This document shows positions 19,884-26,305 of a stretch of DNA of 64,000 bases, piece after piece. Both the position numbers and the translations under genes were made by a program. Positions within the stretch are counted from its first letter, which is position 1. Every line of letters begins with the position of its first letter. Location of the stretch: NCBI RefSeq assembly GCF_002914585.1, contig NZ_PDDM01000025.1, positions 1-64,000 of the forward strand. The letters run 5' to 3'. The notes beneath the pieces are model-generated. The model searched no databases, was not told where the DNA came from, and saw only the letters and a program-made list of their open reading frames with translations. This stretch comes from Pseudanabaena sp. BC1403. GTDB taxonomy: Bacteria; Cyanobacteriota; Cyanobacteriia; Pseudanabaenales; Pseudanabaenaceae.

Positions 19884-19900
19884 GTTTCTAATTTAAAAAC

Positions 19901-19953
19901 AAAACCCAAAAGAGAGTTGCAGCGATACGCGCCGCAGCTCTCTTTTGGGTTTT
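19901..19953 (+). terminator. palindromic terminator of the DUF4912 gene
   Basis: Outer arms AAAACCCAAAAGAGAG (19901-19916) and CTCTCTTTTGGGTTTT (19938-19953) are perfectly complementary. The GC-rich inner part (TGCAGCG...CGCCGCA) pairs with small bulges. It carries the AAAACCC/GGGTTTT cap shared by several other palindromes in the window. Confidence 0.8.
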
Positions 19954-20012
19954 ATATTGAATTGTGCGTAAGTTTAGCCCCTAACTAATCCGAGCCATGA
20001 TTGCCAATTAAG

Positions 20013-20262
20013 TTAATACCAAAGCACGAAATGGCTTAGCCATTTCGTGCTTTCAAAAAAACCAGCGATTCTCATTATGAAACCAATTTTGGTGTTTTTA
20101 GCGCCGAAGGCGCTAGAAACACCAAAATTGGTTGTTTGAAAGCCCGCCAACGACGGGCTTTCAAACAACCAATTTTTATAATGAGAACTGCTGCAAAAAA
20201 CCTTACTGGGTTTGATTTCCAAATCACAAAAGTGCAGTCACCCTTTGGTGAATTGGTATAAT
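20013..20262. mobile_element. family-B element interrupted by a family-A element
   Basis: The ends, TAATACC at 20014 and TTGGTATAA near 20261, match the uninterrupted family-B copies at 39442, 56952 and 60596. The left end also has the typical small hairpin (GCACGAAATGG...CCATTTCGTGC). The right part AATCACAAAAGTG...GTGAATTGGTATAA is the usual family-B right end. Between them sits the family-A element at 20064-20194. No coding capacity is present, so mobilisation would need a transposase in trans. Confidence 0.75.
20064..20194. mobile_element. family-A element (about 131 bp) nested inside family B
   Basis: The ends are AGCGATTCTCATTAT and ATAATGAGAACTGCTGC. Inside are two hairpins: one with arms around ACCAATTTTGGTG and core GCGCCGAAGGCGC, the second with GTTTGAAAGCCCG and CGGGCTTTCAAAC. 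A third copy of ACCAATTTTT precedes the right end. It is flanked by an 8-bp direct repeat AAAAAACC (20056-20063 and 20195-20202), a target-site duplication that documents insertion into the older family-B element. Confidence 0.8.
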
Positions 20263-20303: not shown

Positions 20304-20969
20304 ATGGAGCCTAAAGCCCTACAAACTGTAGCTAAAGATGAATATAAGGACAATTTAATTGATCGCATGTTTATCTGGCTATTTTCTCTCAAGATGTCAC
20401 AGGCTCTGGGCAAGGGGACTGAAATCAGTGGATATGATGGCTTTGTCGAGTTGTCGAAACAAATTATGCAGGGACGTAATGCTAAAGAGCAGCAAGCAAT
20501 TGTGGCAAAAGTACTGCATTCTTTAGTGCCATCACCAGCACTATGGGCAATTCGGACATTTTCCTCGCCTACAAGACTGGTATGCGTTCTTAATGCGTGG
20601 TTTGCAGCCAAACTGTTTGAGTGGTTAGTCGGGCCTTGTGAGGTCGAGGAAGCTGAGATAATTTTGGAAGATGGAACGGCGCGATCGCAACCTTCAGCAG
20701 TACAGATTAAAAAATGTCGTTATTTGGTAGATAGTGGCTGCGTGGGCATGTGTGTCAATATGTGTAAAGTTCCTACTCAAGAATTTTTTACTGAGAAATT
20801 TGGGATTCCGCTCACCATGACCCCCAACTTTGAAGATCTCAGTTGCAAAATGATTTTTGGTCAAATCCCCCTCGATCCAGCAAATGATCCAGACCATAAA
20901 CAACCATGTTTAAAGCAACAATGTCCGACTGCAAGTTTTGCTGCTGCTGCTTGCCCTAAGCTAAATTAA
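20304..20969 (+). CDS. beta-carotene isomerase D27-like protein (DUF4033)
   Basis: A 221-aa protein with the DUF4033 (D27-like C-terminal) signature. It shows the Cys-rich block CRYLVDSGCVGMCVNMCKVPTQEFF (about 133-157) and GIPLTMTPNFEDLSCKMIFG, then a C-terminal Cys-rich tail (CLKQQCPTASFAAAACP). Plant D27 is an iron-dependent 9-cis/all-trans beta-carotene isomerase in strigolactone synthesis; the role of cyanobacterial homologues is mostly unassigned. The cysteines could bind an Fe-S cluster or iron (inference). It has its own start (ATG 20304) just after the nested mobile elements, whose sequence may have replaced part of the promoter. Confidence 0.85.
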   Translation: MEPKALQTVAKDEYKDNLIDRMFIWLFSLKMSQALGKGTEISGYDGFVELSKQIMQGRNAKEQQAIVAKVLHSLVPSPALWAIRTFSSPTRLVCVLNAWFAAKLFEWLVGPCEVEEAEIILEDGTARSQPSAVQIKKCRYLVDSGCVGMCVNMCKVPTQEFFTEKFGIPLTMTPNFEDLSCKMIFGQIPLDPANDPDHKQPCLKQQCPTASFAAAACPKLN

Positions 20970-21039
20970 CGGAGTATTTTCTGCGTATTTCGATAAAATT
21001 CAATTTAAGCGAATTGTTGGAGAAGTCTAGAGCTTGTTA

Positions 21040-21117
21040 ATGGTCGATCGCGATGAGATTTTGGCAGATGCAGTAAAATTAATTGAGCAGGAATCAGTTA
21101 GCCTATATCTTTTCTAA
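21040..21117 (+). pseudogene. short ORF, possible 5' gene fragment at the left edge of the defence island
   Basis: An ATG at 21040 begins MVDRDEILADAVKLIEQES and stops after 25 codons. The N-terminus looks protein-like and contains a HIP1-like TCGATCGCGA site, in contrast with the AT-rich gene that follows. It may be the truncated start of a host gene at the insertion point of the next three genes. Evidence is weak. Confidence 0.18.
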
Positions 21118-21167
21118 GATAGCAAAGATAAATCTTATTTAATATTCTGAAGTTTATTGAGTTATTT

Positions 21168-22718
21168 ATGTCAACACAAATACTTGCTTTAGAAAAGATT
21201 GATCAACTATTTACAATTGATTCTCTTTGTGAATATTTGGAAAGTCATAAATCAATTAAATTGATAGTCAAGTGCGAGATGTTTGATTCAGCTAACTCAA
21301 ATCTAAGCATAGCAGATGATTATTTGTTTTCTCTGTTTCTTGGAGAAAGTATTTATCCATTTTGTAGCTCGATATCTTGTCTAGTTAATTTAAGAAGTAT
21401 TGATTTTGATTTATCTGTAGAAAATCCTTGTGAGTTAGGAATAATTCTTCTAAGATTTTCTGAAGTGTGTTACTCAGAAGGGAAGGATGATTGCAATGAA
21501 ACAATACTTGATAGTTTTCAAGAATTAAAAATAAATTTTCAAAATAAATTGTTTGAGTCAAACAAACCAAGATTAATTTTTCATGAGTTAGCTGATAGTT
21601 ATATGGCTAATTTAGTAGCTGGGGAATCTGATTTAGACTATGACGAAGATTCAGCCAAATCTCATTATAGTTTACATCCTGAAGAAGAATTTGGCTTTTG
21701 GCATTCATTTCTTAGTCCTTATCTTAATTATGACTTATACTCTTCTCCTTGGGCATGGATTATTCCTTATCATGCTAACAAAAGTGAAGAACCACATAAT
21801 ATAGAAACTCTACTTTTATCATATGGAGGGATGAGTGAAAATTTTATCATGGAAGAAGCAGATAACTTAGTATTTAACAGTCTTCCTTCAATAGTATTGA
21901 GCCAGTCAGTAATGATGCAATTTCCTAGAATAGGGTTTAATATTGCTCAAAAGTGTGCATATTCAATTTTTAAAAAAGATATTGATTCAGATAGTTATTC
22001 AAACTTCAATCCAAAAGTCAATCATTTCAGAGATGCTAAAACATATCAAATTTTACTTTCAGAAGATGGTAGTTTGATGACAATTAGAGATAATTTTGCT
22101 CAATATATATTTTTCGTTGATCATTACGACTACTCTGTTGATCATTACGACTACTCTTCTGACGCGGAAATTTCACTCAAAAATCTTGATGTTTCTGTAG
22201 AGCAAGACTATCAAAATGCTTTTGACATAATTGCAGATAAACTGAGTTATTTAGCAGGAAATCATATTGATATATCCTGTCCGTGGAATAAATTAGATGA
22301 TGAACTGTTTGAACAACTTTGCTATGACTTGATTGCTTATTCTTCTAATTTTGATTTAGATACTCGACAAAAAATGGGTAAATCTCGTTCGCGTGATGGG
22401 GGAAGAGATATTGAAGTTTATACTCGAAGCCGATTAAACAAACCAAAATCTAAATGGATTGTCCAATGCAAACTACTTCAAAGATCTGCAACTTTGGCAG
22501 GATCAAAGGTGCAAGTATCTGATGTCATCGATCAATATGGTGCTGAAGGATTCTGGATTATGACAAATGGCGTTATTGATGCGACCTTGCATGACAAACT
22601 TGATGCAATATCAAGAAACCGAAAAATAGGTATAGAAAAATGGGATTATCTAAAAATTGAACGTATATTAGCAAAGCCCAAATATCAAAATATTCGCAAG
22701 CGTTATTTTGGTGTCTGA
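21168..22718 (+). CDS. Mrr-type restriction endonuclease domain protein with unknown N-terminus
   Basis: A 516-aa protein. The C-terminal 150 residues are a PD-(D/E)xK nuclease of the Mrr/REase type: LDDELFEQLCYDLI (about 375-388), RDGGRDIEV (409-417, probable catalytic Asp414) and WIVQCK (Gln433, Lys435). These are followed by GAEGFWIMTNG and a C-terminal helix. The first 330 residues are acidic and rich in Ser, Asp and Tyr and match nothing I know; they may be a sensor or specificity domain. Residues about 317-330 are a 7-aa tandem duplication (VDHYDYS twice). The gene is AT-rich and lacks HIP1 sites. It is followed after 49 bp by the PtuA/PtuB-like pair, so a shared defence role is plausible. 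Confidence 0.75.
   Translation: MSTQILALEKIDQLFTIDSLCEYLESHKSIKLIVKCEMFDSANSNLSIADDYLFSLFLGESIYPFCSSISCLVNLRSIDFDLSVENPCELGIILLRFSEVCYSEGKDDCNETILDSFQELKINFQNKLFESNKPRLIFHELADSYMANLVAGESDLDYDEDSAKSHYSLHPEEEFGFWHSFLSPYLNYDLYSSPWAWIIPYHANKSEEPHNIETLLLSYGGMSENFIMEEADNLVFNSLPSIVLSQSVMMQFPRIGFNIAQKCAYSIFKKDIDSDSYSNFNPKVNHFRDAKTYQILLSEDGSLMTIRDNFAQYIFFVDHYDYSVDHYDYSSDAEISLKNLDVSVEQDYQNAFDIIADKLSYLAGNHIDISCPWNKLDDELFEQLCYDLIAYSSNFDLDTRQKMGKSRSRDGGRDIEVYTRSRLNKPKSKWIVQCKLLQRSATLAGSKVQVSDVIDQYGAEGFWIMTNGVIDATLHDKLDAISRNRKIGIEKWDYLKIERILAKPKYQNIRKRYFGV
22116..22157 (+). repeat. 21-bp perfect tandem duplication in the Mrr-type gene
   Basis: Two identical head-to-tail 21-bp copies (22116-22136 and 22137-22157), each encoding Val-Asp-His-Tyr-Asp-Tyr-Ser. 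The lack of any mismatch suggests a recent slippage or duplication that kept the frame. Confidence 0.9.
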
Positions 22719-22767
22719 AGACTTCACTTTATGTAATTTTAGTAAAAGTTATATCTATTAGAAAATA

Positions 22768-24042
22768 ATGAAAATCAAACAATTAAGAATGCAATCATTT
22801 CGAGGCATCAATGATCTAACTATAGATTTTGATCCACAGCTTAATATTGTAATTGGTAATAATGGCTCAGGTAAATCTAGCATTCTTGATTGCTTGGGCG
22901 CTTTCCTCAGACATATTTGTGATCTTGTAAATGCATTGTATGTAAATTCAAACAACATAACTGATTTTAGGAATCCAAGACCTAAAAATATTTTTTTAGA
23001 TGATGATATTAGTGCTAATAATGAAAAAGCTAATGTTCAGCTAGAAACTACTCTTAAGTCTTTAGATTTTCAATTTTTCATACAAAAAAATAGAGGAGAT
23101 CAATCTAAAGTATCAGCAAACATATTAGACAATAATCCATCTGATCTTTTACAAAGCTTCATTCATTCTACTAGCATACCTGTTCTAATTTATTACTCAG
23201 TGAAACGTGATATTTTATTTGAAGAATGTCTAGATTATGAATCAGAAAAGAGCGATACTCTTCTTGATGCTTATATTCGTGCATTTACAGGTGGGCAAGT
23301 TGTTTTTAAAGAATTTTTTGAATGGTTTAAGTTACTTGAAGAATTAGAAAATGAGCTGATTAGAGATGACCCAAATTATCGAGATAAACAATTAGAATCT
23401 GTACGCCAAGCAATTTATACTTTTCTGCCAGAATTTAAAGATCTCAGAATTCGTCGTCGTCCTGAACTACGCATGACTGTTACCAAAAATAGTGCTGAAC
23501 TTACGATCAATCAATTGTCTGATGGCGAAAAAAACTTGTTAGCGATGGTTGGTGATTTGGCGAGAAGATTGGCGATCGCTAATCCTGAGATGAAAAAACC
23601 TGAACAGGGTAGCGGTGTAGTCTTAATTGACGAGATCGAGCTACATCTGCATCCTAAATGGCAGCGTATGGTTATACCTGCATTACTACGAACTTTCCCC
23701 AACTGTCAATTTATAATTACAACCCACTCACCACAAGTGCTAGGCGAAGTCAAAGATGGAAAAATCTATCGACTTGCTAATACAGAATCTGGCGTTACAG
23801 CAGAAATAGTCCGAACCTATGGCAGAGATAGCAATCGCATTCTCGAAGATGAAATGGGAGTTCCTAAACGGAATCAAAAAATTAAAGATGATTTATTAAA
23901 TCTATTCAGACTAATTGATGATGGTAATTTAACTCAAGCAAAAGAGCTACAAATATCCCTAAAAGAGGAAATAGGCTTTGATGAGCCAGAATTTGCGAGG
24001 GCAGATGTGTTAATTCATCGGAAAGAAGTTTTAGGAAGATGA
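22768..24042 (+). CDS. AAA ATPase, PtuA-like (Septu defence)
   Basis: A 424-aa ABC/SMC-like ATPase of the AAA_15/AAA_21 type. Walker A GNNGSGKSS is at about 30-38, the signature helix LSDGEKNLLAMVGDLARRL at about 250, Walker B GVVLIDEIELHLHPKWQ at about 287-303, and the switch histidine in ITTHSPQ at about 318. A central helical insert (about 50-240) replaces the long SMC coiled coil. There is no TOPRIM domain, which argues against an OLD nuclease. The stop overlaps the next start by four bases (ATGA), so the two genes are translationally coupled. Pairing with a TIGR02646-type HNH gene is the Septu (PtuAB) layout. Only one HIP1 site is present. Confidence 0.82.
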   Translation: MKIKQLRMQSFRGINDLTIDFDPQLNIVIGNNGSGKSSILDCLGAFLRHICDLVNALYVNSNNITDFRNPRPKNIFLDDDISANNEKANVQLETTLKSLDFQFFIQKNRGDQSKVSANILDNNPSDLLQSFIHSTSIPVLIYYSVKRDILFEECLDYESEKSDTLLDAYIRAFTGGQVVFKEFFEWFKLLEELENELIRDDPNYRDKQLESVRQAIYTFLPEFKDLRIRRRPELRMTVTKNSAELTINQLSDGEKNLLAMVGDLARRLAIANPEMKKPEQGSGVVLIDEIELHLHPKWQRMVIPALLRTFPNCQFIITTHSPQVLGEVKDGKIYRLANTESGVTAEIVRTYGRDSNRILEDEMGVPKRNQKIKDDLLNLFRLIDDGNLTQAKELQISLKEEIGFDEPEFARADVLIHRKEVLGR

Positions 24043-24728
24043 GATATATCAAAAAGGGGCATGAACCACCAAGTTTTACTGACTGGAAATCTCAAGAAAA
24101 TGATGATTGGAAACCAACCTACAGTGATTTGCGCGGTCAAATTAAATCTGATGTCCATGACGCTTTACTGAAAGAACAAGGTTATACCTGCTGTTATTGC
24201 GGAATGAAAATTGACAGTGACATCAGCCATATTGAACATCTGCAACCACAAAATGAAAAAGAGTCAGAACAACCAAAAAATCTCGCTTTAGCAATAGATT
24301 TCTCAAATCTTTTAGCATCATGTGGTTTCTCAGAGAAATATAAAATATCCGATCCTGAGCAAAAATATGAAACTGTTCTGCACTGCCTACAGCATTGTGG
24401 CTGCAAAAGAGGAAATAATCCGCTTTCAGTCTCACCATTGCAAGCAGATTGCGCTGATTTTTTTCGATATACAGGTTCTGGAGAAATACGCCCTGTCGAA
24501 GATTCTGATAAACAGCAAGCCGCATTAGAAACTATCCAAACGCTAAATCTCAAGCATGAAAATTTAACGGCTATGAGAGAAGCTGCAATTATTGGTGCTT
24601 TACAAGGATTAGAAGAATTAACGACAGCAGATTTAGAAATGCTGATTAAATCCTATGAACAGCCAAATCAACAAGCTTTTAGCTTTGTGATCGCCTATAT
24701 TCTTCGGCAATTTCTAGAGCCAAACTGA
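24039..24728 (+). CDS. HNH endonuclease, PtuB-like (TIGR02646 family)
   Basis: A 229-aa protein with the retron/Septu-associated HNH pattern: CCYCGMKI (about 49), the catalytic ISHIEHLQPQ (about 67-76), NLLASCG, and GCKRGNNPL, then an IRPVEDSDKQQAALETIQTLNL segment typical of TIGR02646 proteins. In Septu the ATPase holds and regulates the HNH nuclease, which cuts nucleic acid during phage infection (family knowledge). No reverse transcriptase is present, so this is not a retron. It overlaps the ATPase gene by 4 bp and ends 36 bp before the convergent GTPase gene. Confidence 0.82.
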   Translation: MRYIKKGHEPPSFTDWKSQENDDWKPTYSDLRGQIKSDVHDALLKEQGYTCCYCGMKIDSDISHIEHLQPQNEKESEQPKNLALAIDFSNLLASCGFSEKYKISDPEQKYETVLHCLQHCGCKRGNNPLSVSPLQADCADFFRYTGSGEIRPVEDSDKQQAALETIQTLNLKHENLTAMREAAIIGALQGLEELTTADLEMLIKSYEQPNQQAFSFVIAYILRQFLEPN

Positions 24729-24763
24729 ATATATAGTCGCAGAAATTTGCCTGAATGCGATCA

Positions 24764-26305
24764 TTAAGTTGTTTTTTGCTTTACCAACACCATCACTCGA
24801 TTGACAGCATCTTGCACAAAAATCTTGAGAAACTCATCACGGCGATTTAGTTGAAACTGGCGCTGAACGACCTCGGCAATACCGCCATCGCCCCAATCGC
24901 GATCGCGACTAAAGTATTCGATAAAACTCTTACCCGCAATGCGCGTGAGATAGGCTGCTGTAACTGATTGAACTGTTGCTTTAAGAACTAGCCCGACTAC
25001 AGTTACGGAAATTAATGTGGTAATGATTTGGACTACACCTTTGACGATGCCGAGACTAACAAGCGTGCGCGTGAGTGAATTGGCCAGCTCTTTACCGCGA
25101 TCAATATTGATTTCGCAGCCATAGACTTTACCAATTTCCACAACCATTTGGGCGTTGATCGCGGCTGTAGCCAGAAGATCGACCACTGGTAAAGGCGTAG
25201 CAAAAACTACGCCAACTACTAGCCATTGGAATTTCTCAACTACTTTTTCAGCTTCAGCTTGTTGTTGTTGTGAGAGCGCTTCGCGAGTTGCTTCAGTGAG
25301 ACGTTGCGATCGCAATAACACATTATCCGCCACGAGTTCATCGCCTTCATAACTGAGAATATCAAGAGTTCTTACTAAAAGTGGCTGAATTTTGGGTTTG
25401 GGAGTAACGACTTCACCAGAGTCTAGGGTAATTGCCGCAGGACTTGCGGAGATCGCGACTACATCTTCGGGCGCGATAAAATCAAGTACGCGCGATCGCA
25501 AACTAGTTTGGATGATTTCGCGATCGCTTTTAGTTAGGCGATCAATTTTATTGAAAGCAAGAATTGTGCGCTTGCCGATATCGGTAAGGGCTTTGAGAAC
25601 TTCAAATTCCGAACTCCGTAAATCGTCATCAACGACAAACATAATCAAATCTGCTTCTGTCGCAATTTTTCGCGCCTCCTGTTCGCGATCGCTACCCAAT
25701 GCACTAGCTTCTAATATCCCTGGGCAATCAGTAAATTGAATTGGTACTTCTAGACCATGAAATCTCACAGGTGTATAGACTTTACCAAGTTGAGTAGTTC
25801 CCATAACCGCACCGACTTCACCTTTGACGGTGATATCTTGAAGCGATAGATCAAGCAATCCATTTACTAATGAAGTTTTGCCTGCGGAGCCAACCCCAAA
25901 CACAACCACTCGCAATTCTTGACGGATGAAGTTCTTTTTGAGTTGTTCGGTTTGCTCAGATAGAGATCGGCGCATTACCTCATCTTGGATTTGCTCGACC
26001 TGCCGCTCTAAGGCTTCAAGACTGTCTTGAGCCGCTTCGATCTTATCGGTAGGTACTTCAGGAATGGGACGTGGTTTAGATGGTTCAGATTGAAATAGGC
26101 GTAAATACCGCCAAATGATCAAAAACAATCCTACAAATAAGCCTATTAGCAAGAGAACTACGAAACCGCCTAAAATCGGGGAAGAGGCTGCCACAAGTTG
26201 GTAGATTTGAATAATCCGATCAAGTAAGGGAATGATAAACGAAATTACTAGACCAAAGCAGCCTAAGACAAGTAGCGATCGCAACCAAGGAAATTTTCTT
26301 TTCAT
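24764..26305 (-). CDS. membrane-anchored GTPase with DUF697
   Basis: A 513-aa protein. Two N-terminal membrane helices (about 10-30 and 43-66) are followed by a coiled segment and an Era/dynamin-like GTPase domain: P-loop GVGSAGKTS (about 136-144), DCPG (G3) and NKID (G4). The C-terminus is a hydrophobic DUF697 domain (about 350-500). Such proteins are common in cyanobacteria; the role is unknown, perhaps membrane or transport regulation. It starts four bases after the stop of the P-type ATPase gene, so the two are very likely one operon. Confidence 0.88.
   Translation of the reverse strand: MKRKFPWLRSLLVLGCFGLVISFIIPLLDRIIQIYQLVAASSPILGGFVVLLLIGLFVGLFLIIWRYLRLFQSEPSKPRPIPEVPTDKIEAAQDSLEALERQVEQIQDEVMRRSLSEQTEQLKKNFIRQELRVVVFGVGSAGKTSLVNGLLDLSLQDITVKGEVGAVMGTTQLGKVYTPVRFHGLEVPIQFTDCPGILEASALGSDREQEARKIATEADLIMFVVDDDLRSSEFEVLKALTDIGKRTILAFNKIDRLTKSDREIIQTSLRSRVLDFIAPEDVVAISASPAAITLDSGEVVTPKPKIQPLLVRTLDILSYEGDELVADNVLLRSQRLTEATREALSQQQQAEAEKVVEKFQWLVVGVVFATPLPVVDLLATAAINAQMVVEIGKVYGCEINIDRGKELANSLTRTLVSLGIVKGVVQIITTLISVTVVGLVLKATVQSVTAAYLTRIAGKSFIEYFSRDRDWGDGGIAEVVQRQFQLNRRDEFLKIFVQDAVNRVMVLVKQKTT

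Follow-up and report, generated by a model that had tools for sequence, protein, structure and literature searches.

Genes at the locus

The DNA analysed here (the window) is a 64,000-nucleotide stretch of the genome of the cyanobacterium Pseudanabaena sp. BC1403 (contig NZ_PDDM01000025.1, positions 1 to 64,000). Between positions 21168 and 24728 it carries three closely spaced genes that an initial annotation, made from the sequence alone, had read as a candidate defence island and possibly as a Septu system with an additional component. All three open reading frames (ORFs) start with ATG on the + strand and comprise 516, 424 and 229 codons; 49 bp separate the first from the second, and the second and third overlap (spacing -4 bp). 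The last two, ptuA and ptuB, read as a type I Septu pair. The first encodes a 516-amino-acid (aa) protein with a predicted Mrr-type nuclease at its C-terminus, and belongs to a small family whose other full-length members were found without ptuAB nearby. We regard the locus as probably a small defence island made of two independent modules, a Septu system and a solitary nuclease. The features on which the argument rests are these:

21168..22718, + strand: 516-aa protein, unplaced N-terminus followed by a predicted Mrr-type PD-(D/E)xK nuclease
21168..22262, + strand: N-terminal region (residues 1-365), opening with an alpha/beta domain (1-104) and continuing as mixed helices and strands
22263..22715, + strand: C-terminal nuclease domain (residues 366-516), assigned by structure match, 49% mean identity
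22407..22472, + strand: putative catalytic motif D414-X18-Q433-C-K435
22768..24042, + strand: ptuA, type I Septu AAA/ABC-type ATPase, 424 aa (PADLOC PtuA, 451 bits)
24039..24728, + strand: ptuB, HNH endonuclease (TIGR02646), 229 aa, overlapping ptuA by 4 bp

The second and third genes form a type I Septu pair

Judged by their sequences, genes 2 and 3 make up an unremarkable Septu pair of type I, a phage-defence system already known. PtuA matches its PADLOC model at 1.6e-135 over residues 1-422, with Walker A (GNNGSGKS, residue 30) and Walker B (LIDEIE, residue 286) intact. PtuB matches at 6e-58 over residues 1-226, scores 93.3 bits against TIGR02646 (curated cut-off 52.15) and retains an intact HIEH motif at residue 64. 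These matches bear out the initial reading of an AAA ATPase next to a TIGR02646 HNH nuclease as the Septu layout. Gene content, gene order, near full-length hidden Markov model matches and catalytic motifs all agree with the PADLOC definition of type I Septu, and no difference of weight was seen. According to a passage on PADLOC in PMC8565338, type II Septu (retron I-A) has a reverse transcriptase and type I lacks one. The type I assignment follows from the fact that no reverse transcriptase was seen in the insert, which holds three gene-sized ORFs only; a motif scan, a weak test for this enzyme, returned a single [YF]xDD-type motif there, within the ptuA frame. A retron-type Septu was considered and rejected on the same ground, and the pair also scored below the NCBIfam thresholds set for the retron Ec78 equivalogs (315 versus 500 and 110 versus 150). 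For one E. coli Septu, an excerpt of PMC13096335 reports that the ATPase and HNH activities are both required and that tRNA-Tyr is cleaved; by analogy, the pair in the window might act in the same manner.

The same genome harbours a second, diverged PtuA/PtuB-like pair (G000:C2:130010-131311; L099:6232-8312, - strand), 30% and 27% identical to the pair in the window. The 516-aa protein had no match in the 15 kb examined at that site.

The 516-aa protein ends in a predicted Mrr-type nuclease

The initial annotation had also placed a PD-(D/E)xK nuclease at the C-terminus of the 516-aa protein. At the level of a structural model and a conserved motif, the C-terminus is confirmed as an Mrr-type PD-(D/E)xK nuclease. 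The nuclease model aligns with AspBHI (VIA-align Z 12.2, 142 residues, root-mean-square deviation (rmsd) 3.2), MspJI (Z 11.4), Avs4 (Z 11.4, 132 residues) and AF1548 (Z 11.3, 108 residues), followed by FokI at Z 9.1 and lower scores thereafter; Foldseek E-values for the same matches are weak, the best being 1.5e-3. In an alignment of the window protein with its ten full-length relatives (L002, L003, L015-L019 and L104-L106), residues D414, Q433 and K435 are invariant in 11/11 sequences, the D-Q spacing being X18 or X19. The model of the full-length protein, built from a five-sequence input, has a mean predicted local distance difference test score (pLDDT) of 61.4; the C-terminal domain lies mostly at 70-86, and the model is poor at residues 216-368.

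Several known proteins resemble this layout. Like MspJI and AspBHI, modification-dependent enzymes of Type IIM from a family that cleaves in dependence on 5mC/5hmC, the 516-aa protein would combine on one chain an N-terminal recognition region and a C-terminal Mrr-type nuclease, with a D...QxK pattern and the same fold (Z 11-12); it differs from them in that a search of the PDB set gave no match by sequence and that for its N-terminus of about 365 aa no SRA-like match was found. With E. coli Mrr it shares the nuclease clan: Mrr_cat of Pfam was matched by 2/8 aligned members (best 5.8e-5) and by 2/3 of the pentapeptide-fused cousins described below. The window protein itself had no Pfam match at E<=1, Mrr_N was found in 0/8 members, and the Mrr_N plus Mrr_cat layout of E. 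coli Mrr is thus not that of the family. The nuclease of Avs4 is N-terminal, whereas here it is C-terminal, and the STAND NTPase that is central in Avs proteins was not found: Pfam, NCBIfam and PADLOC scans of the 516-aa protein returned no NTPase family. Finally, the PADLOC candidate PDC-M58A matches the C-terminal 130 residues of the window protein and 7/8 aligned members. The match is weak (1.8e-5 in the window protein) and covers the nuclease part alone; PDC-M58 is not named in any paper of the literature searched.

The 516-aa gene and ptuAB are distributed independently

A search for ptuA and ptuB homologues around the ten full-length relatives (blastp, E<=1e-3) found none (0/10; flanks are short for some). 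Two apparent cases dissolved on inspection. A ptuA-like ATPase near L017 is the GajA of a Gabija pair (E 2.2e-244). Near L015 and L019, an ATPase accompanied by an HNH protein might have been a hidden Septu system; the ATPases match MzaB rather than PtuA, and the HNH protein of L019 weakly matches a type IV restriction endonuclease model. The HNH protein of L015 is incomplete in the available stretch and lay outside that scan.

The converse search gave the same picture. At E<=1e-30, PtuA has 78 matches in 58/386 genomes of the phylum. Thirty of them, mostly the best-scoring, were examined with their flanks; one is the window's own, leaving 29 of the 77 others. Among the remaining 48, the second PtuA of the window's genome was looked at separately and has no neighbour of the 516-aa type. 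A ptuB-like ORF lies adjacent to or near ptuA in 29/29 examined loci (split or partial in L025, L027 and L041), and neither half of the 516-aa gene occurs within 927-1500 bp upstream in any of them (0/29). It follows that the Septu pair needs no 516-aa partner. At the level of whole genomes, two members of the same class that carry the 516-aa gene, G099 and G581, lack any match to PtuA at E<=1e-10, G581 being only 69% complete; from coordinates and contig number, G581 and L002 are probably the same record. Among the 386 phylum genomes (apparently the same draw for both searches), only the window's own holds both a full-length 516-aa protein and PtuA.

The initial annotation had left two options for the 516-aa protein, a third component in an undescribed Septu variant or an independent restriction enzyme. 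With the gene mostly found apart from ptuAB, and never upstream of ptuAB in the loci examined, either of which that annotation had named as refuting the variant, a three-gene Septu system is rejected on linkage and the independent enzyme is the better option.

The N-terminus may be an exchangeable recognition module

Residues 1-365, modelled on their own, reached a mean pLDDT of 69.5 and a predicted template modelling score of 0.68. Foldseek searches of PDB and BFVD with this model returned nothing at E<=0.001. Its best VIA Z score, 5.0 (68 residues, rmsd 2.4), falls within residues 1-104 and reflects a common alpha/beta arrangement (ferredoxin-like/IF3-like). No SRA-like fold appeared among the structure matches, for a query that is itself a moderate-confidence model. 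Sequence searches of Pfam, NCBIfam (window protein only), PADLOC, PHROGs and PDB yielded nothing convincing. The earlier statement that the N-terminus could not be placed therefore stands, its length now being put at about 365 rather than 330 aa; a weak or missing match to a model does not show that the fold is new.

Mean pairwise identity over the 11 sequences is 24% in the N-terminus versus 49% in the nuclease, and the N-terminus is the less conserved part in 55/55 pairs. Moreover, a nuclease domain 48-51% identical to that of the window protein sits at the C-terminus of four proteins from this phylum in which it is fused to pentapeptide repeats (three) or WD40 repeats (one); these are L100, L101, L102 and L103, from G149, G087, G127 and G078. 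In an unrooted FastTree phylogeny of 15 nuclease domains, the four repeat-fused forms fall beside L003 (support 0.87), and together they nest in a group that holds the window protein and L002 (support 0.80). Such a placement, with modest support and in an unrooted tree, suggests an origin of the repeat-fused proteins from the 516-aa form through exchange of the N-terminus. Given its replacement by pentapeptide or WD40 repeats and its faster divergence, the N-terminus probably serves as an exchangeable module for recognition.

An exact tandem duplication of a 21-bp unit at 22116-22157, in frame, yields VDHYDYSVDHYDYS. It falls in a low-confidence stretch of the 516-aa model, and L002 is gapped there.

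A small, widely spread family

The closest relative, L002, comes from a metagenome-assembled genome of an uncultured cyanobacterium (60% identity in the alignment), and L003 (G099), from the same class as the window, is 38% identical. Five relatives lie on plasmids, of Agrobacterium (L015, L019), Hymenobacter (L016) and Pantoea (L017 and L018, near-duplicates), and three (L104-L106) on IMG/VR contigs. The tblastn match of L019 covers residues 169-515 only; its 514-aa protein aligns over the full length. The family thus extends from the window's class to Alpha- and Gammaproteobacteria and Bacteroidota. It is rare: the full-length protein occurs in 2/386 phylum genomes (G000, the window's own, and G099) and, within the order, in 1/38 genomes, again the window's own. 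A profile of the N-terminus found three full-length matches and one broken fragment in 388 genomes of the class.

The fragment (G062:C16:174135-174308; L012, L113) is frame-broken, matches residues 236-268 with 66% identity over 33 residues, and is apparently a remnant of a 516-aa gene. It adjoins a BrnT toxin gene (Pfam 1.4e-28) and a small ORF that overlaps the latter.

Weaker matches were left out of the family: L008-L010 and L011 (25-29% identity, nuclease only, E 5e-8 to 5.5e-5) and L014 (E 8e-4). The match in G005 (L013, residues 49-153, 34%, E 1e-4) is a NACHT ATPase by Pfam and was taken as chance. Phage records contained no further relatives when searched with the window protein or that of L106; the L104 protein recovered the same five plasmid records; further scans of viral contigs, including one with the L017 protein, gave no new members, some returning the query contigs alone. 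No published description of the family was found in the literature searched, which does not establish its absence from print.

Defence genes beside the relatives

Most relatives have genes of other defence systems or of mobile elements nearby. The flanking DNA examined is short for some: downstream of L002 it spans about 1 kb, upstream of L106 it spans 1.4 kb, and L105 has no upstream flank. L017 lies near a Gabija pair (GajA 2.2e-244, GajB 2.2e-212), a type II restriction endonuclease and a C5 methyltransferase; L018 near the latter two, by annotation; L019 near dcm, vsr and a type II restriction endonuclease (confirmed by PADLOC); L105 near a C5 methyltransferase (MTase_II) and Vsr; L106 near a C5 methyltransferase and a phage integrase (Pfam) whose end lies about 10 bp before the 516-aa-type gene. 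MzaB-like ATPases occur near L015 and L019, and serine recombinases near L104 and L105. L104 has a helicase that matches models of type IV and of type I restriction endonucleases. A neighbour of L016 is a DarT-family protein by annotation, for which PADLOC gave no match. This variety of neighbours (Gabija, type II restriction-modification, C5 methyltransferases, Vsr, MzaB-like ATPases, integrases) is as expected of an independent single-gene defence.

A C5 cytosine methyltransferase lies within 4 kb of 5/10 relatives, from four lineages (L017, L018, L019, L105 and L106), most of which also have Vsr and/or a type II restriction endonuclease nearby. The proximity may be a real association or may merely reflect defence islands or prophages, the count having no control for other island genes.

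The three genes occupy an insert

The wider context of the three genes is as follows:

20304-20969: D27-like gene, upstream flank (Pfam D27-like_C, 1.5e-37)
20971..24775 (ends approximate), no strand: inserted segment, from blastn against G406 and G193, junction sequences and GC content
23572..23579, no strand: sole HIP1 octamer of the insert, inside ptuA
24764-26305, strand opposite to the three genes: downstream flank gene, reads as a GTPase

Between the D27-like and GTPase genes, the segment contains the three genes and nothing further that was recognised. In two genomes of the same genus, G406 and G193, whose flanks are about 90-95% identical to those of the window, the D27-like and GTPase genes stand side by side without the cassette, the gap between matched coding stretches being 288 and 42 bp, respectively. 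Alignments of the window to these loci (blastn) stop at 20970/20971 and resume at 24776/24786. Since the flanking genes adjoin without the cassette in these relatives, insertion is the best reading of the whole segment (about 3.8 kb) relative to the two sister genomes.

Deletion in both sisters is less likely because of the composition of the segment. Its GC content (20971-24776) is 0.335, against 0.410 in the remaining window; it is the most AT-rich stretch of its size in the window, none of 526 other windows of the same length (sliding, step 100) being equally AT-rich. The initial annotation had described the three-gene stretch as AT-rich and holding one copy of HIP1 (GCGATCGC), and both statements held on recounting, as did the strand and spacing of the genes. 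The octamer occurs 111 times in the whole window, versus 0.61 expected from shuffles, and once in the segment, where the rest of the window predicts 6.9 copies (Poisson P about 0.008). This shortage is real but modest, 30/526 other windows likewise having at most one copy, and taken alone it is only suggestive.

The evidence for an empty site comes from these two genomes, out of a same-genus search of 26 of which one was the window's own. In 15 others, both flank genes are present, far apart or on separate contigs, which in draft assemblies does not exclude adjacency. The D27-like gene was not found in 8 of the 26. Around the segment only short, chance-level repeats were seen, and no mobile-element gene is apparent inside it. 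Short repeats, about 79-81% identical, lie upstream of the D27-like gene (19896-19964 and 20195-20262) and at the empty site of G406 (L081, 2165-2397); they are probably copies of a small interspersed repeat.

Interpretation of the locus

In the two-module arrangement that we favour, the first module (22768-24728) would be a type I Septu system in which the PtuA ATPase controls the HNH nuclease PtuB during infection. The second (21168-22718) would be a single-gene nuclease whose N-terminus of about 365 aa recognises something made by the phage, or a feature of the invading DNA, after which the Mrr-type PD-(D/E)xK domain (D414...Q433-x-K435) would cut DNA. Computation gives the domain layout, the family and the catalytic pattern, and shows that the two modules are distributed independently and that the segment is inserted relative to two sister genomes. 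From these we infer that the second module may defend against phage or plasmids, with the N-terminus as its presumed recognition part, DNA as its predicted substrate and cleavage following recognition.

A number of observations weigh against this interpretation. The window's 516-aa protein has neither a Pfam (E<=1) nor an NCBIfam match, and its assignment to Mrr is predicted from a model, a motif, the weak PDC-M58A match and Mrr_cat in 2/8 members; defence and DNA cleavage by members of the family likewise remain predicted. The 49-bp gap contains no terminator-like site, which makes co-transcription with ptuAB possible in the window's genome. The finding of no ptuAB near the relatives is a local one where flanks are short, and that of no 516-aa gene near ptuAB applies to 927-1500 bp upstream of the 29 loci examined out of 77. 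All four genomes with a repeat-fused nuclease (G078, G087, G127 and G149) also carry PtuA, on other contigs. We do not read this co-occurrence as linkage, the four belonging to one family (f7) in which it is inseparable from lineage. Lastly, no defence neighbour was recognised in the flanking DNA examined around L002, and L003 is flanked by genes for a succinate dehydrogenase flavoprotein and for a Uma2-family protein (putative restriction endonuclease by Pfam).

Were the 516-aa protein a sensor or second effector working with PtuAB, one would understand why the three genes share a strand, are so close without a terminator-like site between them, fill a single insert and, in the repeat-fused form, recur in genomes with PtuA. 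Against this stand the relatives without ptuAB in their flanks, the examined ptuAB loci without the 516-aa gene, and G099 and G581, which have the gene and no PtuA match; we consider a three-component Septu system very improbable. Scarcely better is the prospect that the gene is a decaying passenger without function. Its rarity in the phylum and order and the broken remnant in G062 would fit such a fate, yet the frame is intact, the catalytic residues are invariant in all 11 sequences and the family has spread over long range.

Two further readings are nested within the two-module arrangement rather than opposed to it. One, tentatively our first guess, takes a DNA modification as the trigger: the 516-aa protein would be a restriction enzyme that depends on modified DNA and follows the logic of MspJI, its N-terminus reading a modified base and the Mrr-type domain cutting nearby. 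The closest solved folds, AspBHI and MspJI, both combine an N-terminal recognition part with a C-terminal Mrr-type nuclease, and the D...QxK pattern fits that given for MspJI-family nucleases, (D/E)..(D/E/Q)XK, in an excerpt of PMC3874153. The same source places next to the MspJI gene a cytosine methyltransferase gene whose product is thought inactive, which recalls the methyltransferases beside five relatives. If these are active, though, their own marks cannot be the target, and PMC3874153 also notes that the modification an enzyme prefers is not dictated by similarity in its nuclease domain. The WD40 and pentapeptide cousins are hard to see as readers of bases, and no SRA-like match was found with the moderate-confidence model of the N-terminus. 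A doubtful but possible second reading makes the N-terminus a sensor of a phage protein or assembly that triggers indiscriminate cutting of DNA, as in a single-chain abortive-infection nuclease resembling Avs without the NTPase. The proximity of the nuclease fold to the N-terminal nuclease of Avs4 (Z 11.4, 132 residues aligned) and the fast evolution of an N-terminus replaceable by repeats would suit it; no NTPase or known sensor domain was found, and a fold match shows no function.

What is new here is not the kind of system but a small, unnamed family of Mrr-type nucleases. The false lead of a three-component Septu is removed, and a cleaner one takes its place, a single-gene nuclease family found beside many unrelated defence systems, with a recognition region for which no relative was found and which was seemingly swapped for repeat domains. 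If defensive, the 516-aa protein would be a one-gene restriction factor left unnamed in the window's genome by current Pfam and NCBIfam models. More speculatively, and in our estimate rather unlikely, one mobile Mrr-type nuclease domain has been given interchangeable N-terminal sensors (the domain of about 365 aa, WD40 propellers, pentapeptide solenoids), producing single-chain, NTPase-free infection sensors that cut DNA upon binding a phage product. If that were true, a new class of sensor domains would extend from cyanobacteria to proteobacteria and Bacteroidota, with the 516-aa protein as its founding member.

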